NCBI RefSeq assembly: GCF_000293885.2
Contig: NZ_CP010945.1
Location: 2,810,001-2,874,000, forward strand
Direction of reading: 5' to 3'
Length of the DNA: 64,000 bases
Source: Pseudomonas fluorescens NCIMB 11764
GTDB taxonomy: Bacteria; Pseudomonadota; Gammaproteobacteria; Pseudomonadales; Pseudomonadaceae
Under the pieces are notes generated by a model that was not told the DNA's origin, did no database searches, and saw nothing but the letters and a program-made list of their open reading frames with translations. The translations under genes were made by a program, and so were the position numbers. The first letter of the stretch is position 1, and each line of letters starts with the position of its first letter. This document shows, piece after piece, positions 45,522-61,277 of this stretch.

Positions 45522-46073
45522 ATGATCAACCTCCATCGCTTAATCACTAAACTGTTTCCCGACCGCCGTCCTCAACAAGAGAAGAAGCGTGAGCGCGAGT
45601 TCATCCAGGCGGCCAACTCCTTGAAGACCCTCAAGGTGACACCGGAGGGCGGGATGTCCATCGATCCCGAAGAACTCCGAGATCAGATAATCGCCTCACG
45701 TCAGCAGTTGAAGCATCTTGTCCACAAACCAGGAGCGCCTAGGAAACCTTTCGAGGCAGCGACAGGCCTCCTGCTGGAACAGGAAGCGAGTCCCTCCGTA
45801 GAGACGCCAGTGGGTGCCATGGACTGTATCGAGGTGGTGGCTTGGCGTCGGTTGCACAGTGGCGGTGCAGTGCGTTATCTGTGCCTCCAGTCTACGAGTA
45901 CGGGGCGATTCGCTGTCGCGACCGCAAGCCTGTTCTCGGACGGCACGCAAAGTATCCCAACTTGGATCGAAGCCAACACCGCCAAGCACGTCGCCAATGC
46001 CATACAGAACGATCATCTCCGCTGGTTGGCTACTGTGAGCGAGGCGATGGACGCTTGGGATGCACACCTTTGA
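45522..46073 (+). CDS. Hypothetical protein, island gene
   Basis: 183 residues. Not recognised. The first 60 residues are charged and helical (QQEKKREREFIQAAN). The rest looks like a small alpha/beta domain with tryptophans (VVAWRRLHSGGAVRYLCLQS, IPTWIEANTAKHVANAI). No signal peptide or membrane segment. It is convergent with the ATPase gene, 33 bp apart. Confidence 0.65.
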   Translation: MINLHRLITKLFPDRRPQQEKKREREFIQAANSLKTLKVTPEGGMSIDPEELRDQIIASRQQLKHLVHKPGAPRKPFEAATGLLLEQEASPSVETPVGAMDCIEVVAWRRLHSGGAVRYLCLQSTSTGRFAVATASLFSDGTQSIPTWIEANTAKHVANAIQNDHLRWLATVSEAMDAWDAHL

Positions 46074-46106
46074 TTGCCTTGAGGCGAGACTTACCGACGC
46101 TTGGGC

Positions 46107-47684
46107 CTACAACTGCCATGCCTCAATAGTGTTGAAAAGTCTTTCAATCTGAGTTGGCAAGTCGGTTTGTGGGTCATAGCTATGGTTGAAAGTGCTACCC
46201 CCGGCTACGAACTTGTCCGCGATTGTAACTTTTGAATAAGTAGTAATTTGCTTTAGTCTAGCGCCGAAAATCCGATAATGCTTGTCTCGAAAAGCTGCTG
46301 GCAAATAACTTTCAATCGTATAGCCATCAGTCACCCAGCAATATCCTGTCTTCGATTCATGTTCAGCAATGTCTGCCCAAACCTGATATTTCACGCAGTT
46401 TTGGTTAATGCATTCATCAGTGCCGTCAGCTGCGCGCTGAAAGTCTAGATCTCGATCCATAACTACTATGGAGTTCCTGTTTATACTGAATATGTCAATT
46501 AATCCTGGCGTAGCATTTGATGTGAAATGGCCGAGCATAGAGCCGCCGTAAAAAACGAAGGAGAAATCAAGATTCTCCATGGGCATGGATTTACCATGCG
46601 TCGAGCACCAGAGCGAAAGCCAGTGCAAAATGTAGATTCGATCAGACGCCCCTTCGACCCATATCACTCCGTTGGCTTGAAAAACATCGCTTGGTTTTAT
46701 GCCGAGCCCTGACAGAGCCCTTGCAGGTGATGTTAATTCTGATAATGCGTAACCATTTACTTCAAATAGCTTTGTGTCTGGTACAGACCAGCTTGATATG
46801 TCTAGAAGCACAGAAGAGTGCGTAGAGATGAAAAGCTGAAGGTTCTTGCGGGTGACGATTTCAGAAACTCTAGCCATCATGAGTCTCTGAAGCGTTGGAT
46901 GCAGGTGGACTTCAGGCTCCTCGATGACACATATCTGGTCATCCTTAACAGAGTTCAGCCATCCTATTAGTCCAGCAAACGCCCGCCATCCAGACGGCAG
47001 CATCTTTATTGGGATATGGTTGTACTGACCTAAATCATCGTTGAGGTAGACACCTAACGTATTCTTATCAAGAAAGCTAATTGGGTTGGCATGCTTGTAG
47101 GCGTCATCTGCATTTGGAGGCCTTTTATAGTCTACTTGGTCGGGCTGCAATGGGTGCGGCGCGAGTCCCACTAGATGCTTGCCATCATTATTGAGCGCGT
47201 TGATGACTTTGTTAATACAAACTCCGCGCTCGTCGTGTGATGAGCGAAAACTAATTATTGCTTCTAGTTTATCTAAAACCTTTAAAAGTTCTTTGGGAGA
47301 TTTCGACGATTTACTGTAAATGCTTCCCTTGAATAAGTGTCTGTCTTCTCGTGTGGTAACGGCTATGTATGTGCCAAATTCATCAATATCTAGCTTGTTG
47401 AATACTGAAGCTACCCAAGCTCCATTGTCAAAGTAGATGATGGAAGCCGCCACGGTAGTGGATCGCATGTTTTCACGAGCAATCGTTTTTATAATCTCAA
47501 CATCCTTGAGTGCGCGCACCATATCTAGCACAGTTGACTTACCGCCGCCGTTGGGGCCGACGAAAATATTAACCTTTGAAGCTTTGACTTGAGGAACATC
47601 ACGCGGTTTAAGGGAGTTGGTCTGCATGATGTTATTGAGGCAGAGTGTTCGAAGCCCCAACAGACCAAAACTTTTAATATGCAA
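46107..47684 (-). CDS. OLD-type AAA ATPase with TOPRIM-like domain
   Basis: 525 residues. Walker A GPNGGGKST (residues 43-51), Walker B ICVIEEPEVHLHP with the following ISTHSS H-loop, then a C-terminal TOPRIM-like part with the acidic WVEGASDR and VVMDRDLD. This is the layout of overcoming-lysogenization-defect (OLD) nucleases. No helicase gene is beside it, so it would be a class 1, solitary type, which can act in phage defence. The DNA is clearly richer in AT than its neighbours, pointing to separate acquisition. Transcribed alone. Confidence 0.85.
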   Translation of the reverse strand: MHIKSFGLLGLRTLCLNNIMQTNSLKPRDVPQVKASKVNIFVGPNGGGKSTVLDMVRALKDVEIIKTIARENMRSTTVAASIIYFDNGAWVASVFNKLDIDEFGTYIAVTTREDRHLFKGSIYSKSSKSPKELLKVLDKLEAIISFRSSHDERGVCINKVINALNNDGKHLVGLAPHPLQPDQVDYKRPPNADDAYKHANPISFLDKNTLGVYLNDDLGQYNHIPIKMLPSGWRAFAGLIGWLNSVKDDQICVIEEPEVHLHPTLQRLMMARVSEIVTRKNLQLFISTHSSVLLDISSWSVPDTKLFEVNGYALSELTSPARALSGLGIKPSDVFQANGVIWVEGASDRIYILHWLSLWCSTHGKSMPMENLDFSFVFYGGSMLGHFTSNATPGLIDIFSINRNSIVVMDRDLDFQRAADGTDECINQNCVKYQVWADIAEHESKTGYCWVTDGYTIESYLPAAFRDKHYRIFGARLKQITTYSKVTIADKFVAGGSTFNHSYDPQTDLPTQIERLFNTIEAWQL

Positions 47685-47899
47685 GACTGTATTCCTTTAC
47701 TGATTGATTTTGATAGGCGCACTCATTAGGCATCTTCTGAAAATGAGCTCCCGAGCGGTGCAGGCGTCACGCTCGTATTGTACCTAGAGAGACGGAAGGA
47801 GAGGTGCTTGCAGGAGTTGTAGTCGCCGGCACCGGCAGCTTTCACACTGGTGGGCTATCCGCGATATACAGGAAGAAACAGTACGGGCTGTGGTGAGGT

Positions 47900-48106
47900 T
47901 TACTGAAACCAAGGCCCCCAGGTCGGCGGGTTCTCAACGATGTCGATTGAGGTGCTGAGCTCGTCCTGAATGTGTTCAAAAACTCTGTCGAGACTTGGAT
48001 GAGCTTTCGACTCTCGCAGGGCAGTCACTACTTCCAGTAGCTCCCGGCCTTGGGCTACATGCATTTGGATATCGCAATACACGGTGTCATCGCTGTCTCG
48101 TTCCAC
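47900..48106 (-). CDS. Small hypothetical protein
   Basis: 68 residues, GTG start at 48106 with GGAG about 8 nt before it. Acidic, mostly helical, ends TWGPWFQ. Not recognised. It lies 18 nt downstream of the next gene on the same strand and is probably cotranscribed. Confidence 0.55.
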   Translation of the reverse strand: MERDSDDTVYCDIQMHVAQGRELLEVVTALRESKAHPSLDRVFEHIQDELSTSIDIVENPPTWGPWFQ

Positions 48107-48124
48107 GTCTTTTCTCCGTCTGCA

Positions 48125-48532
48125 TCAATCCAGCTTGGGCTTACTTCTGGCAGCTCTGTGTGCCTCGAGGTGCTGCATCTCTGATTCCCAACAAGCCAGG
48201 AATTTACACCAGTCCGCAGCGTAAGGCCCATCTAACAATCTGGTCGACCCGATACTCGCCTGATTGAAGCGCTCCCTCCAGGGCTGGGGGATAGTCTGCT
48301 CCAAAATGATGTCGATTCCGGAGTGGTGATACTGCACGGTGACACAATCCCGAAGCTGGTTGAGCTCAAGTGCCTTGTCAGCATGAGGGGAGTATTTCCG
48401 TTCTTGAAGATCAAGGTTATCAAGGATAGATAAGGCATCGAACGCCTTCAAATCGCCTGGAGATATGTTCGCAAGCATCCACAAAGCCTTTCGTCTCTTG
48501 GCCTCCAGTTCGCGGAGTTCATCGTCGGGCAT
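48125..48532 (-). CDS. Hypothetical protein, island gene
   Basis: 135 residues from the ATG at 48532, chosen because AGAGG precedes it and because the upstream extension runs through a non-coding-looking GC-rich repeat. Helical, charged (ELRELEAKRRKALWMLANIS), with a tryptophan-rich end (WRERFNQ, WCKFLACWESEM). No known family. Forms a short operon with the 68-residue gene. Confidence 0.6.
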   Translation of the reverse strand: MPDDELRELEAKRRKALWMLANISPGDLKAFDALSILDNLDLQERKYSPHADKALELNQLRDCVTVQYHHSGIDIILEQTIPQPWRERFNQASIGSTRLLDGPYAADWCKFLACWESEMQHLEAHRAARSKPKLD

Positions 48533-48544
48533 TTGAGTTACCTC

Positions 48545-48700
48545 TTGTTGGCGTTGATGGCGTGCCGCCTGCGGCGTCAGGCTGCCGTGAATCGAGCCCC
48601 GCCAAGGCGTGTCTCGACCCTGCGGGCTCGCATCCCTCACGCCTGCGCGCTCCGCTTGCTTGGTGTCTGAGCCTCTGTGAAGCATAGATCGCAACGCATC
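48545..48700. repeat. GC-rich interspersed element, copy 1
   Basis: Non-coding-looking stretch with CCCTGCGGGCTCGCATCCCT and CGCGCTCCGCTTGC. The same pattern (GGGCTTCCATCC, then GGCGCTCCGCTTGC) recurs at 57580-57655. Such blocks appear repeatedly in Pseudomonas integrative elements as I recall; function unknown. Confidence 0.45.
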
Positions 48701-48804
48701 CTACCCTCATGATTCGGAGCTCGGCATCGCTATTCGCAGCGTTCTGTTATCGTTCTAAAAGTAATTTAGTCGCTCTTAGTCATCAGCCTTCTGGGGAGCC
48801 GGGA

Positions 48805-49320
48805 ATGGACACAACTCGACGTGTACCAGGCAGAGCCTACCAAAAGGTTCGCGATCCCGAGCGCCTACTCATTGAAGAACGCGCCGAAGCTCTATCCGCT
48901 GCCGGCTACCCGCTGCCAGCTGATGACCCGGCTATGTACGCTGAGCAAAGGCTGAAAGAGGCCAGAGCGGCAGCGCGTTCATCCCAGGTAGGTAGCGTTA
49001 GCGAAAACACTGCGGCTGAGCTCTCCGCAAGAGAGGTATCCCACGTACTTAGGGAGGTGATTTTGGGTCGAAGCGTCATGAGTAAGGTAGGTCATGAATC
49101 GTGGGACGAAATTTATGCCGGCCACTTCCAGATCAATGTAGATGGTTGGGAGATATCGATTTACAACGACTGCGATCAGCTCGACTACTGCGAAAAATGC
49201 ATCAGCCCGGATGGGCGACACTGGTCGTTTGACTCCGGAGATCGCTTTGGCACAGACCCCATTGCACTGCTATCTGTATGGGAGCATCAGATGCTTGAGA
49301 AACTGCTGAAGGCTCTCTAG
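48805..49320 (+). CDS. Hypothetical protein, DUF7693-like
   Basis: 171 residues from the ATG at 48805 (GGAGCCGGGA before it). The first 60 residues are charged and look unfolded. The C-terminal 95 residues (SHVLREVILGRSVMSKVGH, then FQINVDGWEISIYNDCDQLDYC and WSFDSGDRFGTDPIALLS) resemble a compact Pseudomonas domain that I recall as DUF7693. Function unknown. It appears in accessory DNA. Confidence 0.6.
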   Translation: MDTTRRVPGRAYQKVRDPERLLIEERAEALSAAGYPLPADDPAMYAEQRLKEARAAARSSQVGSVSENTAAELSAREVSHVLREVILGRSVMSKVGHESWDEIYAGHFQINVDGWEISIYNDCDQLDYCEKCISPDGRHWSFDSGDRFGTDPIALLSVWEHQMLEKLLKAL

Positions 49321-49395: not shown

Positions 49396-50685
49396 CTAGT
49401 AATCATCCCAGTCGTCGTAATGCTCGTCGGACTCTGGCTGACCATCATCGCGCTGCAGGTCTTCAGTTATGAATTTGACACGACAAACCTTATGCCTTAC
49501 CAGCGTGTCAGGCACGTACTCAATCGCAGGCGTCTGCGATGAGGGGCTGCTAAGCAAATCATCTAGGTTCGTGAAAGCAGTTCTAGGCTCGAGTGAAGCC
49601 ACCACGGCATGATTAAAAAGGGTCAGGTTTGTACCTTTCCGCACTTGAGCTGATTCGAACAGCACTCCGTCGAGCGGCGGGTCGAATTGTGTAGCTAGGT
49701 ACTCCGCCATGACTTGTGTAGCTAGGTATTCGTGTTCCTGGTTCGGAAGCACCGGAACGGTAATTTTTGCGTGGAGTGTTTTCAAGAAGATGCGCCTACC
49801 CATTTGCTCTTCGTAGCTGGCTTCAAACGCACTCAACGGCCTCGCTTCGTAGGCTTCATCCAATGCGATGAAATCCAGGACGCGAACGGGTCTTGTGAGT
49901 TTGAATTCTCCGCTTACGACTCGTCCTCCTACTGGCGGGCGAAGCTCGGCAACACAGGTCTTTCGGTCAAAAGCGCCATAAAAAGCGGCCAGCCCTTTAG
50001 GGTTCATTCGGCCAGCACCTGCGGCCTCCTTGGGTGGAGGGCCGAGTTCTGCAGCAGGCTTGCTAATGATCGAGTCGTATTCTGAAGCGGAATCACAGCG
50101 CCTAGCACGAAAGATCTGATCGTCGACAAGCTCTCTGACAACGGACATCAAGCCATTAGGGCTTTTGAAGGATGAGAGCCCTCGAAACAGCCAGTCCAGA
50201 AAATCCTTGGCATGCTGACTAAAAAATCGATTTCCATGCTTCATTTCGTTCTGAAAATTCAGCCATCGAGCTTCTGCTTCCCTTGGTCGAATCACTCTCC
50301 ACTCATAGTTTTCATCATCGCTGTACCTCGCGTCACCTCCTTGCATGATGTCGTAATGGGAGCTTTCGTTGAGGTCGCAGAGAACACGCTCGGCAACCGG
50401 GTCGTCCTCATCCAAACCAAGCAATTCTGCGACATGGAAGATAAGGGGATCGCCAGTCTGCTCTGTTTCAGAGCGTTTTCCGTTGTCATCGTACTGATCG
50501 TATATCGCTCCAGGATGGCAATACTTCTGGAGGACATCGTCGACCATGCTGATCAGGTCTTCGAATGGGATACCCTTACGCCTTTTTAGGCAGAACGAGC
50601 ACTCCGCAGTCACGCCTGTTCGCCTGATCAACCTAATGAGATAGGCTTCGTTCAAGCATTGGTGGCAGATCAGGTCTTTGTCCAT
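49396..50685 (-). CDS. RES-domain protein with N-terminal zinc finger
   Basis: 429 residues. An N-terminal zinc-finger-like part (Cys7, Cys10, Cys29, Cys32) and a helical region (the HEPN/RES N-terminal type) precede a RES domain (about 190-370). The domain has an Arg in QIFRARRC, Glu in FDRKTCVAELRP and Ser in LFESAQVRKG. RES domains degrade NAD+ by phosphorolysis and are best known as toxins. The usual Xre-type antitoxin gene is absent here, so the extended N-terminus may itself sense or restrain. It stands alone between unknown genes. Confidence 0.78.
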   Translation of the reverse strand: MDKDLICHQCLNEAYLIRLIRRTGVTAECSFCLKRRKGIPFEDLISMVDDVLQKYCHPGAIYDQYDDNGKRSETEQTGDPLIFHVAELLGLDEDDPVAERVLCDLNESSHYDIMQGGDARYSDDENYEWRVIRPREAEARWLNFQNEMKHGNRFFSQHAKDFLDWLFRGLSSFKSPNGLMSVVRELVDDQIFRARRCDSASEYDSIISKPAAELGPPPKEAAGAGRMNPKGLAAFYGAFDRKTCVAELRPPVGGRVVSGEFKLTRPVRVLDFIALDEAYEARPLSAFEASYEEQMGRRIFLKTLHAKITVPVLPNQEHEYLATQVMAEYLATQFDPPLDGVLFESAQVRKGTNLTLFNHAVVASLEPRTAFTNLDDLLSSPSSQTPAIEYVPDTLVRHKVCRVKFITEDLQRDDGQPESDEHYDDWDDY

Positions 50686-52087: not shown

Positions 52088-53650
52088 ATGCACACCATAC
52101 GGAAAGTGGTAATTCAGAATTTCAAAAAATTCAAAACGCTCACGCTCGATTTTGAGTCTGGGAAGAATGTGCTGATTGGCAACAATGAGGCAGGAAAAAG
52201 CAGCATTTTGCTCGCGCTAGACCTCGCGCTCGGCGGGAGTCGCAACCGCATTGAAGCTCTGGGTGCAGAAACACTGCTCAACAAGGATTCGGTGAACACC
52301 TTCCTCGCAGGGGAGAAGACCCTAGAAAAACTACCTGAGCTGATAGTCGACGTTTTCCTAGAGGAAGGTGACGACGAAGGCCTGTATGGAACCAACAACT
52401 CCCACCAGCGCCAGACTGACGGCGTGCGCATGATCCTTGCGGTGATGGCCGAGTATGGCGAAGCGGTGCAAGCCATCTTGGCTGATGATCAACCGAACTT
52501 CCCGTTCGAATATTACGCGGTGCGGTTTGAAACGTTCGCCTGCAGGCCTTATGCAGCTTTCAACCGACCCATCAAACACATGATGCTAGACGGTTCACGT
52601 ATTGATGGCGACCACGCATCTCGTGAATACACCCGAGCTGTGTACGCTTTCAACGCCCCCGTTGAAGACCGCTATAAGCTTGAAAACCTGTATCGCCAAG
52701 GCAAGCAGGCTTTTACAGGACAACATCTCGCAGCCCTCAACGCTGACCTACCCGCGTATCAGTTTGACGTACGGAGTAGCGTCCGGTCGAACCTGGAAAC
52801 TGACCTAATCATCACGGAAGACAATATTCCGCTTGAGAACCACGGCAAAGGAAGGCAGTGCTTCATCAAGACTGAATTTGCGCTGAGCAAGCACAAGCAA
52901 GGCGGCTTGGATGTAATGCTCTTGGAGGAGCCTGAGAACCACCTCAGCCATTCCTCCATGAAAGCACTTGTCGCCAAGCTAGCGGAGAACGAGAGCACCC
53001 AGCTTTTCATTGCAACCCACAGCAGCCATATCTGCTCAAGGCTTGATCTTCGGCATGCCCTTTTGATCGGCCCGAATGCAGCTGCTGGCTCACTTAAAGC
53101 CCTATCACCTGACACCGCAGAATTCTTCATGAAGGCCCCGGATAACAACGTCCTGGAGTTCGCGCTCTCGAAGAAGGTGATATTGGTTGAAGGTGATGCT
53201 GAATTCATCCTGGTGGAAGAGTTCTATAAGCAATGTACAAATGGGCGCCTACCGCATGTCGATGACGTCCACATAATCTCTATTGGGGGCACCAGCTTCA
53301 AAAGGTACATGGAACTCGCTAACCTGCTCGGAATTCGAGTCGCAGCCATACGAGACAATGACAAGGATTATCAGAAAAACTGCGTAGAAAACTACGTCGA
53401 CTTCGCTTCGGATAATGCCAAAGTCTTTGCCGACAAAGACAATGCCCGTTCAACCTTCGAAATAGGGTTGCACAACGACAACGAGGAAACCTGCAAGACC
53501 GTCTTCGGCCCAGGACGAAAAACCCTCTCCCCCTTGGAATACATGCTGGCAAACAAGGCAGAAGCCGCGTTTGAGCTGCTCAAGGGAAAGCCAGGCGAGC
53601 TCACCGTTCCTGCCTACATCGCGGAGGCAATCCAATGGATAAACGAGTGA
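52088..53650 (+). CDS. OLD-family ATPase-TOPRIM nuclease, GajA-like
   Basis: 520 residues. Walker A GNNEAGKSS (31-39), an ATPase domain interrupted by a long middle region, Walker B VMLLEEPENHLSH with IATHSSH, and a TOPRIM domain with Glu368 (ILVEGDAEF) and Asp423/Asp425 (RDNDKD). It is paired with a UvrD-type helicase gene that overlaps by 16 bp, which is the class 2 OLD / Gabija arrangement. GajA-type proteins nick phage DNA when nucleotide pools fall. Gabija proper has a larger GajB, so this is a variant or relative. Confidence 0.82.
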   Translation: MHTIRKVVIQNFKKFKTLTLDFESGKNVLIGNNEAGKSSILLALDLALGGSRNRIEALGAETLLNKDSVNTFLAGEKTLEKLPELIVDVFLEEGDDEGLYGTNNSHQRQTDGVRMILAVMAEYGEAVQAILADDQPNFPFEYYAVRFETFACRPYAAFNRPIKHMMLDGSRIDGDHASREYTRAVYAFNAPVEDRYKLENLYRQGKQAFTGQHLAALNADLPAYQFDVRSSVRSNLETDLIITEDNIPLENHGKGRQCFIKTEFALSKHKQGGLDVMLLEEPENHLSHSSMKALVAKLAENESTQLFIATHSSHICSRLDLRHALLIGPNAAAGSLKALSPDTAEFFMKAPDNNVLEFALSKKVILVEGDAEFILVEEFYKQCTNGRLPHVDDVHIISIGGTSFKRYMELANLLGIRVAAIRDNDKDYQKNCVENYVDFASDNAKVFADKDNARSTFEIGLHNDNEETCKTVFGPGRKTLSPLEYMLANKAEAAFELLKGKPGELTVPAYIAEAIQWINE

Positions 53651-54669
53651 TGTTCGCTGTGGCAGGTTCAGGGAAGACCACCTTGCTAGTGAAGCGTCTG
53701 AGCCTAGAAAAGCGCGCACTGATAATCACCTACACGGAGAACAACTATCGCCATTTGCGCGATAGCATCATCAAACGGTTTGGCCATGTGCCGAAAAACA
53801 TCAACCTGCTGAGTTATTTCACGTTCCTTTATAGCTTCTGCTATCGCCCTCTGCTGCAAGTGCATATGCAGACGCGGGGAATCAGCTTTCGAGCTCCGCA
53901 CGCCCGTACGCTAAAGCTCAAACGGGACAATATGGCGTATTACGCTACTACAAGCGGCAGCGTTTACCACAATCGCCTCGCAAAGCTCCTAGAGACCGTT
54001 AATGCAATTCCTGACGTGATGGCGCGAATGGAGCGCTTTTACGATGAGTTTTATGTCGACGAAGTTCAAGACCTAGCAGGTCATGATTTCAACCTGCTAA
54101 TGGCATTAGCGAAAGCCAAGGTTGAAATGCTATTTGTAGGTGACTTCTATCAGCATACGTTCGACACCAGTCGTGATGGAAACGTGAACAGCTCGCTACA
54201 CGCTGACATTGGGAAATACGAAAAGCTTTTTCAAAAGGCGGGTGTGACTGTCGACAAGGAGACACTGAGTCGAAGCTGGAGGTGTGGCGTCACCGTATGT
54301 GATTTCATACGTGCACATCTGCAGATTGATATGCAGTCACAGCACACGTATGAAACCGAAATCATTCCTCTGGCCAATCAAGTCGATGCTAACGCCGTGC
54401 ACGCCGATGGCAACGTGGTGAAGCTGTTCTACCAGGAACATTATAAATACGGGTGTCTGTCTAACAACTGGGGTGCCAGTAAAGGTCTGGATCACTACAA
54501 CGATGTATGCGTTGTGCTGGGTACTACTCACTGGAAGGTCTACGAAAAATCCTCGCTTGCCGATCTCCCTCCACAGACAAAAAACAAACTCTATGTTGCC
54601 TTCTCACGGACACGCGGGAGGTTGTATCTGGCGCCCGAAAAACTTTTCAAACGATTTAAAACAGATTAG
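53635..54669 (+). CDS. Minimal UvrD-type SF1 helicase, GajB-like
   Basis: 344 residues. Walker A AVAGSGKTT (8-16), Walker B VDEVQDL (near 141), motif III LFVGDFYQH, motif IV-like RSWRCG, motif V GASKGLDHYNDV and motif VI VAFSRTRGRLY. All core motifs are present, but the length allows little or no 1B/2B accessory domains; GajB as I recall it is about 490 residues. It starts inside the OLD gene (alternative start at 53650 with TGATG coupling), so the two are translated together. Confidence 0.8.
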   Translation: MDKRVMFAVAGSGKTTLLVKRLSLEKRALIITYTENNYRHLRDSIIKRFGHVPKNINLLSYFTFLYSFCYRPLLQVHMQTRGISFRAPHARTLKLKRDNMAYYATTSGSVYHNRLAKLLETVNAIPDVMARMERFYDEFYVDEVQDLAGHDFNLLMALAKAKVEMLFVGDFYQHTFDTSRDGNVNSSLHADIGKYEKLFQKAGVTVDKETLSRSWRCGVTVCDFIRAHLQIDMQSQHTYETEIIPLANQVDANAVHADGNVVKLFYQEHYKYGCLSNNWGASKGLDHYNDVCVVLGTTHWKVYEKSSLADLPPQTKNKLYVAFSRTRGRLYLAPEKLFKRFKTD

Positions 54670-54763
54670 GTCGGAGCCATAGGCGGTGATCTCTGGCCTA
54701 AGATCTTGCCCGGCAAGCATGATCAGCATGAAGGGTAACTGCCTGGCATCACACCTAGCGTGA

Positions 54764-55390
54764 TCAGTCGCCAGGCTTTCCCTGCTCCATCTCCCCAATC
54801 CAGCTATATGTGCCGTTTAGCCAAACGAAGACGCTGTTGAGCACCTCGCGCAAGTGCCGGATGTTGATGTGCGTAACGTCTGGGAGATGGTCTTTACCAC
54901 TATTGGTCGTCGCATACCGAAACGCCATCGAGTCTGGGTCAACGTTGTCCAACTGGCGAATGAACTCGTGAACAGCAGTAGCATTGGCGTCAGAGCGCTC
55001 TAGACCGATGCCCTTGAGCAGATGACGCAACTCCGACCACAGAGGCATCAACGGATGCTTGTCGTAGTTCTTGGGCTCTTTGCCTGTCAGAGCGCGAGCA
55101 CTCTTTAGCATCAGCTTGAACTGCAGCTCCAAGGAGTGGCGGTATAGAAAAAGCAAAGGGTAAATGCCGCTATCCAATGGCACCTGACGATTCGCCATCG
55201 CCTCCACAAGTCCGTCAGCGGCATCTTTGTATGCAAAAGCATAGAGATCGACACGAAAGTGAGACCAGTTCAGCATCGCGTTGTACTGCCAATCTTCACC
55301 CTGGATAAACAGCTGCTGGCCGGAGAAGTCTGCCGGCCACTGGATGGCCTCAAGCTCCGGGTCGAGCATCGGTGGCGATTCCTCATCCAT
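54764..55390 (-). CDS. Hypothetical HEPN-like protein
   Basis: 208 residues. The central helix YPLLFLYRHSLELQFKLML is typical for a helical group related to HEPN proteins in defence islands, and its Arg-His pair lies where catalytic HEPN residues are often found. The C-terminus (HINIRHLREVLNSVFVWLN) is helical too. Convergent with the helicase gene. It could be a toxin-like RNase; evidence is weak. Confidence 0.5.
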   Translation of the reverse strand: MDEESPPMLDPELEAIQWPADFSGQQLFIQGEDWQYNAMLNWSHFRVDLYAFAYKDAADGLVEAMANRQVPLDSGIYPLLFLYRHSLELQFKLMLKSARALTGKEPKNYDKHPLMPLWSELRHLLKGIGLERSDANATAVHEFIRQLDNVDPDSMAFRYATTNSGKDHLPDVTHINIRHLREVLNSVFVWLNGTYSWIGEMEQGKPGD

Positions 55391-55596
55391 ATCGTCTTCT
55401 CACGTTGGCCAGTCCATGGTTCAGAACTTTACGAGTCTGGGTGGACTACCGGCAACCTGTAAGTGGTTTTCTAGCGTGGACTACTGTGCGAGAAAGCGTG
55501 ATCCAAGGCTGAGGTCACATTGTCCTTTTTGCTGGATACTGACATCGAAAAATGGCTCTGATCCATGCTGGGCAGGGTTTGGTGCCTAATTGAGTC
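55391..55596. other. Gene-free spacer with a short direct repeat
   Basis: GTGGACTAC occurs twice, near 55440 and 55479. Otherwise nothing recognised. Confidence 0.4.
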
Positions 55597-56052
55597 TCAA
55601 CCGCCAACGTACCACAGCCGGTTAACTGTGCTCTTGGGCAGTTCTAATTGCCGGCAAACCTCCGCTTGAGAAAGGCCTGCCGCCTTGAGATCGCGCACCG
55701 CTTTGAGTCTTTCTGCGGCAGCGATCCTCTGGGGCGTAGTGAGCTTTTGGGGTTCGGCAGGTAGCTGCTCATCAAGAACACCGAGCTGCATGAGTTCTTT
55801 CATTGTGTCATTCAGAACTGAGCGCGCGGTCTTGCCCTCATCGGCTGCGGCCACCAGTGTGAGAAAGGAGAGTGGCATTAGGCCTAGCGCTTTAGCTAAA
55901 TCGGCACTGAGATCGACGGTAGCCGATGTCGTCGATGCTTCCAAGCGGCTTATGTGTGCTTGATCAGTCTGTTGCTGGAGGTCTGCTTGCGACAACCCAT
56001 GTCGAACCCTCAGCCACTGTAGCGTTGCCGCATATGCCTTCCGCAAAGACAT
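55597..56052 (-). CDS. Transcription regulator with two HTH domains
   Basis: 151 residues from the ATG at 56052. N-terminal XRE-type HTH (about 8-62: LRVRHGLSQADLQQQTDQAHISRLE) and a second HTH at the end (LKAAGLSQAEVCRQLELPKSTVNRLW) of the resolvase/sigma-4 kind. It is divergent from the three small genes at 56210-57510 and probably represses them. Such proteins are frequent in Pseudomonas integrative elements. The 157-bp gap to the next gene should hold the operators. Confidence 0.8.
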   Translation of the reverse strand: MSLRKAYAATLQWLRVRHGLSQADLQQQTDQAHISRLEASTTSATVDLSADLAKALGLMPLSFLTLVAAADEGKTARSVLNDTMKELMQLGVLDEQLPAEPQKLTTPQRIAAAERLKAVRDLKAAGLSQAEVCRQLELPKSTVNRLWYVGG

Positions 56053-56209
56053 CCAGCGCACCTCTCCACAAAAGGAGACGGTATGCCCCGTTTGATGAGT
56101 TCCACACAAATGTATATAGTCATTGCGATGGGACGAAAGATGCGCAACCTTTGCGATCTGTGCGTGCGCAGAGCCCTATTTCCTTTGTCGCCAATAGGAT
56201 CATCAATTT

Positions 56210-56605
56210 ATGACTAATTCTTCTGAGCACGAGCTGCTGCGGGAGGGGGAAATCTCCTCTGCTGGCACGTCGCTGTCTCATGCAGAAGTGGAAGTATTGG
56301 TCGCGGGGCGCTTCGGTCGTAAGCCTTTTTGCACCGTCGAGGACTGGGTCATCTTCCACGTCGACGAATCCCCAGAGTCGCTCGCGAAAGTACGAGCTAC
56401 TGGTCTGGAGCCGATGTTCATGTATGCCCACTGCGTCATCCATGACGGTCATGGCCGGTTTCCGCCAGGGGGCTGGGTGCGCTCGACCCTGTGTAAATCG
56501 TTCGACGGTGTTTGCCTGTTCGAGACGCGAAACACGGTGTACGTGCTCGTGGGAAAAGGGCGCGAGATGACTGCCTCGCTGAAGACAATATTTGGCTTAT
56601 GTTAA
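56210..56605 (+). CDS. Hypothetical protein, DUF6957-like
   Basis: 131 residues. Has an Ala/Ser/Glu-rich start, then VEVLVAGRFGRKPFCTVEDWVIFHVDES and FETRNTVYVLVGKGREMTASL. I recall this as a family of accessory Pseudomonas DNA (DUF6957), function unknown. First of three co-oriented small genes behind the divergent regulator. Confidence 0.6.
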   Translation: MTNSSEHELLREGEISSAGTSLSHAEVEVLVAGRFGRKPFCTVEDWVIFHVDESPESLAKVRATGLEPMFMYAHCVIHDGHGRFPPGGWVRSTLCKSFDGVCLFETRNTVYVLVGKGREMTASLKTIFGLC

Positions 56606-56647
56606 TCGCAGGCGCACTTCGCGGGCCTGCTCAACACGAGATACACG

Positions 56648-57118
56648 ATGTTCAGGATTAGCATGCAAGACCAGGCCGGCCCGGTGGGTATGTTCGGGGA
56701 CGGTCTCGCTCACTTCCACGCCATGTCGCGATCCTTGGTTACTCATTGGTATCACGTCAGTCTCAAGCGCCGGCATGAGGGACGGTTCGTAGCTTATGAA
56801 GAGATGCTGAACGATGAGCCTCGCTTGGTGGAGCTGCTGGTCTCCCAAGACGAGAGCATGGTCATTCAAGATGTCCAGGTCGTTACCCCGGCATGGATGA
56901 ACAAAGGGTCAGGCTGGAAGATGGAAAAGCTGAAATCGCTTTCCATGGGGTTCAACCAAGCAGAAGTGCCGATCTGTGTTCTGCACGTCGAGAGTGGTGA
57001 TGTGTACGTCAATACCCATCAGCGCGACCTCGATGTCGATGCCTTGGTTGGGGTCAGGGAGCTATATCGGCGCAGCGCTGCAACCACCGGCGTAGCCTCA
57101 GCGTCGGAGGCTCTGTAG
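56648..57118 (+). CDS. Hypothetical protein, island gene
   Basis: 156 residues; not recognised. Mixed alpha/beta with HWYHVSLKRRHEGRFVAYEE and VPICVLHVESGDVYVN. No export signal. Lies 42 nt after the DUF6957-like gene and ends 2 bp before the next start, implying coupling. Confidence 0.55.
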   Translation: MFRISMQDQAGPVGMFGDGLAHFHAMSRSLVTHWYHVSLKRRHEGRFVAYEEMLNDEPRLVELLVSQDESMVIQDVQVVTPAWMNKGSGWKMEKLKSLSMGFNQAEVPICVLHVESGDVYVNTHQRDLDVDALVGVRELYRRSAATTGVASASEAL

Positions 57119-57120
57119 CT

Positions 57121-57510
57121 ATGGACGACATCAATACCGTCGCAGTCGATTTACACGAAAAGCGCTACTCGGACTTCGACCTTCTTCGCATCGCCAAAGC
57201 AGTGAATCAAGACTACGACGGGCTGGTCACGGCCTACCTGGTGAATGTCCATATTCATGCGTGCAGTGCTGTTGGTGTGGTGTTCGGTCACATTTGCCCT
57301 GGGCCGTACCAACGATTTGCAGATGGTCGGCTGATTCGGACATCCGACATTCAGTCCGTAACGAAGGAAGGCAGTTTTTGGGTGATCAATACGGTCAACT
57401 CGAAGTACGTCATTGCGACGTTCAGGCGGGACGTCGGACGGCGTAGCTTGCGTGAGTTCATGCGCATAGCGGGAGACAGGTATCTGCCAACGCCGGATCG
57501 CCTCCAGTAG
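57121..57510 (+). CDS. Hypothetical protein, island gene
   Basis: 129 residues; not recognised. The start is 2 bp after the preceding stop. Contains HIHACSAVGVVFGHICPGPYQRFADGRLIRT, a possible small beta-barrel or zinc-free core. Last of the three-gene run. Confidence 0.55.
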   Translation: MDDINTVAVDLHEKRYSDFDLLRIAKAVNQDYDGLVTAYLVNVHIHACSAVGVVFGHICPGPYQRFADGRLIRTSDIQSVTKEGSFWVINTVNSKYVIATFRRDVGRRSLREFMRIAGDRYLPTPDRLQ

Positions 57511-57808
57511 CTCTGAGGTCGTTGTTTTGGGCTTGCCCCGCCTCGGGGATGGCTGTCGTTTACCAATCCCGCTGTTGCGGGACTTGGCCCCTTCGGGCTT
57601 CCATCCTCAAGTCTCCAGCCCTGCTTGGGCCTAGGCGCTCCGCTTGCCATTTCGGACGCCAGCACATGGTGCCTGCTCGATTCCCTAACCGTTGGCCATT
57701 GAATCCGGTCTCCGAGGTTTTGACCGCTTCCTCGGGAGCAGATAGTTATCGGACACTTTCAGCGATATCGTATGCTCGGTTCCCTATGCTTAGCCAAGGA
57801 CGTGTGGC
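57511..57808. repeat. GC-rich interspersed element, copy 2, plus promoter region
   Basis: 298 bp without a gene. 57520-57660 repeats the style of 48545-48700 (CCCCTTCGGGCTTCCATCC and GGCGCTCCGCTTGCC shared). The last 100 bp before 57809 are less GC-rich and probably hold the promoter of the nuclease pair. Confidence 0.5.
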
Positions 57809-58681
57809 ATGCCGAAGATCAAACCACTGGATATGAAGCTAATCGACCTTCTTTTCGAGATGGAAGGGGGTTACGTGTTGGACTTCTCAGACCGCACCAT
57901 GTCCCAGTTCTTCCTCGGAGAGCTGGAGATCGATATTGATGATCCGCTGTTCGCTGCGGATGGCACATCCAAAGCTAGGCGCCTGCGGAGCTTCCTCACG
58001 CTTGCCGATACACCGACTTGCGTGCGAGCGCTCAAAGCACTCTGGCAATATCGTCAGGCTGCGCTGGCCAACCAACGCAAAGATGAACCTGTGGTTAACG
58101 CCGAGGGGCGCTTCCTGACTTTGATTCAAGGCTTGGAGTCCGGCTCATCTGCCGACGTCATCAATGGCGATCCGTTCGCAGCTGTGCGTCAGGTAAATGT
58201 TGATCAGGCGGCTCAGTTGAAGAGGGCCCTGTTGGACATTCATAAGCTCGCTCCTCAAGCACGAGGCTACGCATTCGAGACGTTCCTCCAGCAGCTGTTT
58301 GAGGCATCCAACCTCCAACCTCGCGCACCATTTCGGAATACGGGGGAACAGATAGATGGAAGCTTCCAATGCCGAGGTGACATCTACCTTGTTGAGGCGA
58401 AGTGGGTAGTGAACCCTGTTGGTGCAGGGGAGCTGCACATCTTTCAAGGCAAGATCAGCCAGAAGGCAGCTTGGACACGAGGTGTTTTTATCAGTTACTA
58501 CGGATTCACTGACGTTGGGCTGGAGGCATTCGGGCGCGGCAAGAGCTTGATATGCATTTCGGGAAAAGATATCAACGATGCTTTAGACAAGCACATACCA
58601 TTTGCGGATGTAATCGACCGCAAAGTGCGGGCGGCTGCTGAGACAGGTTCAGTATTCGTACCTTTGGATAAATTGTTCTAA
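57809..58681 (+). CDS. Mrr-like restriction endonuclease
   Basis: 290 residues. N-terminal about 100 residues form a domain with GGYVLDFSDRTMSQFF and TSKARRLRSFL; I recall such a domain at the front of several abortive-infection proteins. The C-terminal half (about 150-270) is a PD-(D/E)XK nuclease of the Mrr kind: YAFETFLQQLFE, Asp183 in EQIDGSF, and Glu196-Ala-Lys198 in YLVEAKW. Mrr-like enzymes cut modified or foreign DNA. The next gene, 37 nt downstream, is a second putative nuclease. Confidence 0.8.
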   Translation: MPKIKPLDMKLIDLLFEMEGGYVLDFSDRTMSQFFLGELEIDIDDPLFAADGTSKARRLRSFLTLADTPTCVRALKALWQYRQAALANQRKDEPVVNAEGRFLTLIQGLESGSSADVINGDPFAAVRQVNVDQAAQLKRALLDIHKLAPQARGYAFETFLQQLFEASNLQPRAPFRNTGEQIDGSFQCRGDIYLVEAKWVVNPVGAGELHIFQGKISQKAAWTRGVFISYYGFTDVGLEAFGRGKSLICISGKDINDALDKHIPFADVIDRKVRAAAETGSVFVPLDKLF

Positions 58682-58718
58682 GCCCATGCGGCAACGCTAA
58701 ATTTCATCAGAGGCTCCA

Positions 58719-59915
58719 ATGTACCTAACCATCATGAAGCCCGAAGTGCTTCAGGACGTTGCATCGCTCGGTCGTGGTCTTTGGATTGTAGAAGGCCCTG
58801 ATGGCCCAGCGCTCGTGGTCAAAGCGGGCAAAGAATTTATCCTCGCCGCACGTGAGAAGCGCGAGCTGAAGTTCTATCTTGCACCATACAAGTCTGATGA
58901 GGCGCAAGGCCTGACGCTGTTGACGGCCTGCTTTGATGATCCGATTAGTCCGCTGACTATTAAAACACCTCTGATGGGTAGCGATCCTTTTACAGAGGGC
59001 CTGAAAAGTCTTCCTGACCGTTTTAGCGTCTGTTTTTTTGATGAACACAATCGCGAACTTCTCAGCAGTACAGCGCACGCTAGCCTTGAAGGGCTCCGAA
59101 AGTATGCAAAGGGTGTCAATCCCTTGGGGAAGGAGCACTGGCATCTCATGATGGAGCAGGCAGATCACTGGTTCAGCTTTACGACTAGGGAAGACGACAG
59201 CCGAGCAGTAACGTTGACGCTCTTGGAGGATCTATTTCCAAGCGACTTCCTGATCACCGACCTCACTCGCCAAGGCTTCCAGGGTTCCAGAGGTTTCTCA
59301 AATACTCACCTTGAGCGACCGGAGCCAGGACACCTACAGGAGCTGGATATCATCTATCTGCTCCAGCGTGCTTACTCGGCGGAGCAAATCATCCATGGGC
59401 CAGTGAAAGTCTCCGATGGGGAAGAGCTGACCGATGCTGTTGTTTTGGGGACGGAGGTCACGCTTTTACTACAGGCCAAGGACAGCCCAAACACAGCTGA
59501 AATGATGGGGACAAAGCTTGAACGAAAGCGTAAGAAGGCCCTGAGTCAGTTGAAAGGAGGCCTATCGCAGCTACGTGGCGCAGTTTCAACTATCGAGCGT
59601 GAGGGAAATCCCGCGCTGCGGCTTGTTGATGGTACTTCCCTCAAAATCGATCTTGCAGCACGCCCCCTTGTAGGAGTCGTGGTGGTAAAAGAGCTGTTTA
59701 GCGACACCTATGAAGAGTACGGGGCCATGATCTTGGATTTCATGGATGATGTAGGTGTTCGTGTGTTGGCATTTGATTACAACGAGTTCGAGGTTATGAC
59801 CAGGCACTGTCCCTCAGAGGAGGCACTCCTTTCGGCATTCTGGCAAATTTCCGAGTGCGCGGTTGAACAGAGGATCTATCCCAGACTTCGCTTCACTGAG
59901 CTTCCCCCACGCTGA
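58719..59915 (+). CDS. Putative PD-(D/E)XK nuclease, partner of the Mrr-like protein
   Basis: 398 residues, family not recognised. Its central part has Asp239 and Gln252-Ala-Lys254 (EVTLLLQAKDSP), the spacing of a PD-(D/E)XK site. A basic helix KLERKRKKALSQLKGGLSQLRG follows, as often seen after the active site in these nucleases. The N-terminal 200 residues are of unknown fold with beta-rich stretches. Same strand as the Mrr-like gene, with a 37-bp gap, so an operon is likely. A shared defence function is inferred. Confidence 0.6.
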   Translation: MYLTIMKPEVLQDVASLGRGLWIVEGPDGPALVVKAGKEFILAAREKRELKFYLAPYKSDEAQGLTLLTACFDDPISPLTIKTPLMGSDPFTEGLKSLPDRFSVCFFDEHNRELLSSTAHASLEGLRKYAKGVNPLGKEHWHLMMEQADHWFSFTTREDDSRAVTLTLLEDLFPSDFLITDLTRQGFQGSRGFSNTHLERPEPGHLQELDIIYLLQRAYSAEQIIHGPVKVSDGEELTDAVVLGTEVTLLLQAKDSPNTAEMMGTKLERKRKKALSQLKGGLSQLRGAVSTIEREGNPALRLVDGTSLKIDLAARPLVGVVVVKELFSDTYEEYGAMILDFMDDVGVRVLAFDYNEFEVMTRHCPSEEALLSAFWQISECAVEQRIYPRLRFTELPPR

Positions 59916-60031
59916 TTCACCACCATTTCCACTCAATGAAGGGTACCCCCGACAATCCCCTAGACTGAACTAGAGGTTTAAACGTCACTTCACCGTCGTA
60001 TAGGTTAGCGATCCGCAACAGTACCCTGGCA

Positions 60032-60475
60032 TCACTGAGCAAACATGCCGGCAATAATCCTGGCGTCGAGCAAGGCGTGGTGAGGCAGCTCTTCACCCTC
60101 GCTAGTCGGAGAAAGCGTCGTCGCATCGGTAGGAAAATTGCGAACGATTCTGGGCCATCGTCCGTCCTCATATACCAGGTCGCAAAAAAGCTCCCAATCG
60201 TACTGAGGGGCATCAGTGACGATCTCGACCTCCTTTTTGAACGACGTCAGAAACCTGAGCAGCGATATCCTGGCTTCAACAATAGGCAATGCGTAGCTCC
60301 CACCCCACAGCTGCGGAAGCACGATTTCCTTTACGAAATCACTGCAGTCTTCTTCTTTCCAAGCATCGAGCAATTCCACGTAGAATTCGCGCCCATCGTC
60401 AGCCACCAGTGCGAGTGATATCAGCTTCGCAGCCGCTGAGAGCTTGGTAAACTCACAATCAAGAAAGACCCTCAC
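60032..60475 (-). CDS. DEDDh-type 3'-5' exoribonuclease (RNase AS-like)
   Basis: 147 residues. Acidic residues in the exonuclease order: Asp and Glu in VFLDCEFT (residues 6 and 8), Asp in DAPQYDWELF, and His-X4-Asp in PHHALLDARI. This is the compact DnaQ-like fold of the Rv2179c/RNase AS group, which trims poly(A) tails in mycobacteria. Divergent from the next gene with 17 bp between starts. Confidence 0.78.
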   Translation of the reverse strand: MRVFLDCEFTKLSAAAKLISLALVADDGREFYVELLDAWKEEDCSDFVKEIVLPQLWGGSYALPIVEARISLLRFLTSFKKEVEIVTDAPQYDWELFCDLVYEDGRWPRIVRNFPTDATTLSPTSEGEELPHHALLDARIIAGMFAQ

Positions 60476-60492
60476 CTTGTTAGAACTCCGTA

Positions 60493-60858
60493 ATGACTAG
60501 GGCTCGCTTGGATATGGCGCAGGAAGGTCAGCTATGGGAAATGGCTCTCGAGCATCTTGGCTCAGACGGACTCCTCCAAGCGGTCATAGAAATGTGGAGC
60601 CGCGCCGCCCCTCCACCCAGACCATTGGTCGAACACCTGTCCACCAATGAGGTGAGTCAGGACGTCTTGAGCATACTGAAAATTGCCCAGCAGCGGGTAG
60701 GTGCCATCGTGCCAGGTCGAACGCCTGATGCAGGCACAGTCACGCTTTACGCTCGTCACGCTAGCAACTTAGTTGATGGGCTCATTACACTGCTGCCAAA
60801 GGTGAAGCTTTCGCAAGCCTTACGAGGCTCTTGTCTTGAAATCGAACTGGGGATTTGA
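60493..60858 (+). CDS. Hypothetical protein, island gene
   Basis: 121 residues, helical, not recognised (GQLWEMALEHLGSDGLLQAVIE). The start is 17 bp from the divergent RNase gene. It leads toward the next gene, whose start is 83 bp beyond its stop. Confidence 0.5.
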   Translation: MTRARLDMAQEGQLWEMALEHLGSDGLLQAVIEMWSRAAPPPRPLVEHLSTNEVSQDVLSILKIAQQRVGAIVPGRTPDAGTVTLYARHASNLVDGLITLLPKVKLSQALRGSCLEIELGI

Positions 60859-60941
60859 CGTCCGCACAGGCTCCACGAATACCAGTCAGCAACAATCCTA
60901 TTAAAACTTGCCCAGCGAAATGCGTCCTTTTGAGATGTTCT

Positions 60942-61277
60942 ATGAGCTCTGATTTAACTGAAGAAGAAATGCGTCATGCCCTTTTCGGCACACCTCAGCC
61001 AGAGGAGCAAGTTTCTACGCCGCTAGTGCCGGAGCCCGTGGAAGAAGTTGTGCTCGCCAAACCGCTGGTCGCTCCAGCAGCGAAGAAGAAAGTGGCAAAA
61101 GCATTTACGCCTAGGCTGAGGGTCACGTTACGTGTTGGAAACGAGTTTGAAGGAAAAATGGTCGAGTTGTTTCACGAGGCCGACACGTTGAGCTCGTTGC
61201 TTGCTGAGCAGGAGGCTGTAAAGGCTGCTAGGAAAAAGTACAAGTACGTGGAAGTGGTATCGGTTAAATCCATGTAA
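60942..61277 (+). CDS. Hypothetical protein, island gene
   Basis: 111 residues from the ATG at 60942. The first 25 residues are acidic (SSDLTEEEMRHALFG), then a Pro/Glu/Val-rich linker and a basic Lys-rich end (APAAKKKVAKAFTPRLRVTLRVGNEFEG). The start at 60855 would add an unlikely Cys-rich extension. Resembles short proteins of Pseudomonas integrative elements; function unknown. Confidence 0.5.
   Translation: MSSDLTEEEMRHALFGTPQPEEQVSTPLVPEPVEEVVLAKPLVAPAAKKKVAKAFTPRLRVTLRVGNEFEGKMVELFHEADTLSSLLAEQEAVKAARKKYKYVEVVSVKSM

Follow-up and report, generated by a model that had tools for sequence, protein, structure and literature searches.

The known systems closest to the first of the two genes considered here include the modification-dependent restriction enzymes E. 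coli Mrr and MspJI/AspBHI, of which E. coli Mrr carries an N-terminal Mrr_N domain. For the second gene, they include FokI and BspD6I (Nt.BspD6I/R.BspD6I small subunit), along with Shedu (SduA) and other stand-alone PD-(D/E)XK defense nucleases. We analyzed both genes in a stretch of 64,000 nucleotides from Pseudomonas fluorescens NCIMB 11764 (contig NZ_CP010945.1, positions 2,810,001 to 2,874,000 of the forward strand), hereafter the window. Gene A (57809-58681, plus strand) encodes a protein of 290 amino acids (aa) in which an N-terminal, helical GYVLDFS domain precedes a C-terminal Mrr_cat PD-(D/E)XK nuclease, and gene B (58719-59915, plus strand) encodes a 398-aa member of a putative PD-(D/E)XK nuclease family that has no name. 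A preliminary description of this DNA had proposed a single joint system. Such a two-gene system would have been new, but the distribution of the genes speaks against it. More probably, A and B are nuclease effectors that each work as a single gene, independently of the other, and that became neighbors in one lineage of a mobile defense-island block, rather than the halves of one system.

Distribution of A and B

A two-gene system would be expected to show conserved adjacency across homologues. We find A beside B in only three of 66 B loci and in four of the 27 genus genomes with B. B homologues thus usually lie without A, the very outcome that the preliminary description had named as refuting its proposal, and a joint A-B system is therefore unsupported.

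The genus survey covered 398 genomes, with matches taken at E ≤ 1e-3. B was matched in 27 of them (in 23 with 390 residues or more aligned at 30% identity or above) and A in 26 (14 full-length), and ten of the 14 genomes with a full-length A have no B match. Both genes occur in four genomes, G000 (the window's genome), G005, G309 and G376, where they are adjacent in each case and 96-100% identical to those of the window; chance alone would give 27 x 26 / 398 = 1.8 genomes. The 66 loci were found by searching GTDB genomes for two peptide patterns of B, and their hosts are Pseudomonas, other Proteobacteria, two Bacteroidota bins and two Desulfobacterota bins. The three in which A adjoins B are L055-L057. 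With L056 and L057 counted as G376 and G309, the pair is known from five genomes: that of the window, G005, Pseudomonas sp. KBW05, P. orientalis and P. syringae PA-6-8C. Among 28 genomes that carry B in a large contig with no adjacent A, 25 lack any A match, while three match A somewhere, one full-length at 49% and two over the N-terminal part only. No A was found in the examined stretches of 11 viral-contig and four plasmid B loci, and at one locus (L074) our simple caller of open reading frames found no B.

It is conceivable, though quite improbable, that in this one lineage A and B became a two-gene system, in which one senses and the other cuts, or in which both DNA strands are cut by the two PD-(D/E)XK domains acting as a pair. 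The pair has been kept in five genomes, and its gap (37 bp in the window, 37-42 bp across the known pairs) would allow one transcript, which together leave room for cooperation within this lineage. However, the rarity of adjacent A among B loci and the frequency of full-length A without B argue against such a system, and because the five A-B pairs are near-identical they count as about one event. Scans of 57400-60200 say little on transcription, since both counts fall below the shuffle means: a simple scan found no sigma-70-like site, and the sole terminator-like site lies on the minus strand past B (60164-60141).

The reality of the two genes is not in question, as the numbers of their homologues mark them as more than chance reading frames (4029 among 5482 candidates scored for A; 110 at E ≤ 1e-3 among 7997 for B, and 260 by profile among 7999). 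Both reading frames, their strand and their 37-bp gap are as first described, and the codons for D183, E196 and K198 of A and for D239, Q252, A253 and K254 of B are in place. The source genome, a single contig of 6,998,154 bases, has one match apiece to the A and B profiles. The pair had also been called isolated from other genes, which is roughly right: the upstream gene ends at 57510, 298 bp before A, and on the other side a convergent gene (60032-60475, minus strand) lies 116 bp past B. This convergent gene encodes a short exoribonuclease-like protein, which scores 39 bits against RNase AS NF033638 (cut-off 200) and matches Rv2179c-like below its cut-off.

Domain architecture of the two nucleases

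Protein A follows an already known design, the sensor-plus-effector build of abortive-infection proteins. Its nuclease core (residues 130-290; 58196-58678, plus strand) matches Pfam Mrr_cat (PF04471) at E 4.8e-6, with 27.1 bits against a gathering cut-off of 21, and in an alignment of 51 of 120 listed homologues plus the window protein, all 52 rows match Mrr_cat at E ≤ 1. The catalytic motif, D183 followed by E196-A-K198 (58355-58402, plus strand), is kept in 52/52 rows, and the predicted model (pLDDT 82.2, pTM 0.57) has a PD-(D/E)XK nuclease fold, so the identification of A as an Mrr-like nuclease holds. A differs from canonical E. coli Mrr at the other end. In Pfam at E ≤ 1 only Mrr_cat was matched and Mrr_N was not found; residues 1-110 (57809-58138, plus strand) instead form an N-terminus like that of Abi_C proteins. 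Four other proteins (L047, L048, L050 and L093) join a GYVLDFS-type domain of this kind to Abi_C (PF14355; E 1.8e-13 to 1.1e-12), and these fusions, together with PMC3710099, bear out the statement of the preliminary description that the domain is common to abortive-infection proteins. PMC3710099 also lists fusions in which an MRR-type restriction endonuclease (REase) domain is combined with AbiJ-NTD1 or NTD2. A resembles these fusions in combining an N-terminal domain common to Abi_C proteins with an Mrr-type nuclease C-terminus; it differs in that Pfam at E ≤ 1 gave no AbiJ-NTD match, which leaves its N-terminal domain unassigned to a type. A is a further case of the interchangeable sensor-plus-effector build in abortive-infection proteins. 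Its helical domain, of the kind also joined to Abi_C, would probably sense or regulate, holding the Mrr-type DNase until an invader is sensed and DNA is cut. One of the four GYVLDFS-Abi_C proteins, that of Tahibacter aquaticus (L093, 14703-15518), has a B gene some 5.4 kb away.

The novelty lies with B, a putative PD-(D/E)XK nuclease family without a name. As the preliminary description had noted, B belongs to no recognized family: we found no match in Pfam, PADLOC, NCBIfam or PDB sequences at E ≤ 1, or in PHROGs at E ≤ 0.01. Seven of 73 B relatives matched NERD at E ≤ 1 (best E 0.0077), and the window protein matched no sequence family of the PD-(D/E)XK superfamily at that threshold. The predicted model is confident (pLDDT 91.6) and places a FokI/BspD6I-type PD-(D/E)XK core at residues 195-398 (59301-59912, plus strand), in keeping with the nuclease originally proposed. 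B is alike to FokI and BspD6I in this predicted cleavage core, but has no sequence match to them, differs in its N-terminal part, and has no methyltransferase among its scanned neighbors in the window. The N-terminal domain (residues 1-194; 58719-59300, plus strand) is alpha+beta in the model and has no fold assignment.

An alignment of 72 of the 110 homologues plus the window protein (73 rows) shows how strongly the putative catalytic residues E208, D239 and Q252-A-K254 (59340-59480, plus strand) are conserved. E208, E236 and K254 are kept in 73/73 rows and D239 in 72/73, while position 252 is Q in 65 and E in eight. The replacement of the acid by Q252 raises a reading in which B has a PD-(D/E)XK domain without catalytic activity and binds DNA or regulates. 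We regard this as very improbable, as the near-complete retention of the other residues, and of E at 252 in the remaining eight relatives, would be hard to explain without catalysis. Active PD-(D/E)XK enzymes with Q at the equivalent position exist. The N-terminal domain has invariant charged residues of its own (K35, K38, D108, R112 and E113) and is probably a sensor, a ligand-binding part or an assembly part that would control a FokI-like PD-(D/E)XK DNase, whose active site would comprise E208, D239, Q or E at 252, and K254. Both proteins would cleave DNA in a metal-dependent manner, with phage or plasmid as the presumed target and the N-terminal domain as the presumed sensor. B may found an undescribed family of stand-alone single-gene anti-phage nucleases, mainly of Proteobacteria, in which a new type of N-terminal sensor bearing these invariant residues governs the DNase, a proposal that we advance tentatively and at somewhat less than even odds.

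Some relatives of B depart from this architecture. At three loci (L103, L108 and L116) B is apparently split into a short upstream reading frame (118-132 aa) and one of 279-307 aa, perhaps as decayed copies or assembly errors. Two B-like proteins (P0098 and P0108) have a C-terminal extension, and residues 446-524 of P0098 match Crr6 (PF08847) at E 4.8e-7.

Defense genes and plasmids around A and B

The surroundings of A and B look like a defense island. Gabija lies 3.1 kb upstream, with GajA and GajB (52088-54669; 520 aa and 344 aa) matching PADLOC at E 1.1e-107 and 1.9e-49 to best models of 532 and 369 positions. Relatives of A and B, too, repeatedly have GajA- or GajB-like genes nearby, but the Gabija genes are separate from the two, and the system is a neighbor rather than a component. 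A RES-domain protein (49396-50685, minus strand), which matches HEPN_RES_NTD1 below threshold, and an AAA_15/AAA_21 ATPase (46107-47684, minus strand) are likely further members of the island. Elsewhere B is often found near known defense genes. Of ten hand-picked large B neighbors, seven match defense proteins at E ≤ 1e-40 (ZacC, GajB twice, HamB, the type III restriction subunit REase_III, PDC-S28 and GajA) and three do not. It is this gene company that suggests a defensive role for A and B, and B is likely a stand-alone defense nuclease. Because no library tried recognizes it and known anti-phage genes often lie nearby, B offers itself as a single gene to be tried in phage assays.

Both genes also travel on plasmids, which points to another possible role. 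Matches to A occur in 1446 plasmid records, of which 655 are conjugative and 174 mobilizable; 339 records match over at least 80% of its length, and 36 of the 40 rows listed for these are annotated 'restriction endonuclease'. B is found on four plasmids, beside a TIR protein, near a type I restriction-modification operon, beside a DUF6602 gene, and behind thymidylate synthase and three tyrosine recombinases. The DNA directly upstream of A, moreover, resembles a repeat of conjugative Pseudomonas plasmids. A and B might then serve plasmid or island biology, such as stability or rivalry between mobile elements, and not phage defense. We think this unlikely given the anti-phage genes that make up seven of the ten hand-picked chromosomal neighbors and the presence of Gabija in the window, and the two roles are not mutually exclusive.

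Possible assembly and spread of the A-B block

The pair sits in a 5.7-kb block (55599-61277) comprising, in order, a helix-turn-helix (HTH) gene (minus strand), DUF6957, genes of 156 aa and 129 aa, A, B, the RNase AS-like gene (minus strand), and genes of 121 aa and 140 aa. This whole interval is common to the other four genomes with the pair, at about 89-95% identity. In L056 and in G005 (L150) the homologous run stops at both block edges, with L150 giving further matches at 45599-46077 and 47895-49312. In KBW05 (L055) homology extends into the right flank of the window, and P. orientalis (L057) also has the Gabija region (52211-55599), set apart by roughly 1.5 kb of other DNA.

Parts of the block also occur apart. 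The P. putida plasmid YC-AE1 (L136) has the HTH-DUF6957-156-129 set (55597-57510 in the window) and an A of 83%, then an MvaT gene in place of B. At L139 and L140 the alignment covers only A and about 50 bp in front of it (window 57756/57762 to 58659/58662). B aligns alone at L133, and at L064 it aligns with, kilobases away, two separate stretches around the 140-aa gene and crcB; in both, B homology spans window 58715/58719 to 59913. B has a leader as well: when L060 or L133 is compared with L059, L064 and L065, the roughly 50 bp before the gene agree at 88-96%, and L068 shows the likeness more weakly. Upstream of this leader the same loci show no further in-register alignment (over 600 bp; next 550 bp). 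Most simply, these patterns would be explained if genes carried singly as cargo had gathered in a hotspot block and the block had spread afterwards. The case shows how neighbors within one spreading block can mimic an operon.

Several points weigh against reading A and B as independent defense effectors. The pair stayed together in five genomes while the block spread, and with its short gap and no plus-strand terminator-like site a single transcript is possible. L058 and the window lineage (L055) lack the leader seen before B elsewhere, and most aligned B proteins have Q rather than E at 252. The reaction, the target and the protection against phage are things that we infer for A and B. The contrast between B neighbors and random genes, though in favor of a defense setting, is also rough. 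We chose 253 neighbors (within four genes, 170-1800 aa, 55 loci), and PADLOC (E ≤ 1e-10) on the first 126 (L058 to L093) matched 222 families with at most three proteins per family, against 46 families (25 shown, one protein each) for 118 of 142 random genes from ten Pseudomonas genomes, a control that is not species-matched; the total of matching proteins is not given, and dozens of sister models may be hit by a single protein.

Two further observations concern the mobile setting of the genes. On the P. putida plasmid pZXPA-20-602k (L133), B is preceded by a thymidylate synthase gene and by three tyrosine recombinases in a row, and homologues of the large recombinases and of the thymidylate synthase-sized gene occur upstream of B at seven further loci (L060-L065 and L067), a set that is likely a mobile element. 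Upstream of A, window 57524-57648 resembles a dispersed intergenic plasmid repeat, which occurs 130 times across 49 plasmid records, mostly from Pseudomonas; 42 of these plasmids are conjugative. A 24-kb stretch of pWW0 holds three copies and the window's genome one. Compared with shuffles, the plus strand of this element folds better as single-stranded DNA (z -2.1) and not as RNA (z -0.5), and we take it to be a possible candidate for a single-stranded promoter-like element of plasmid leading regions.
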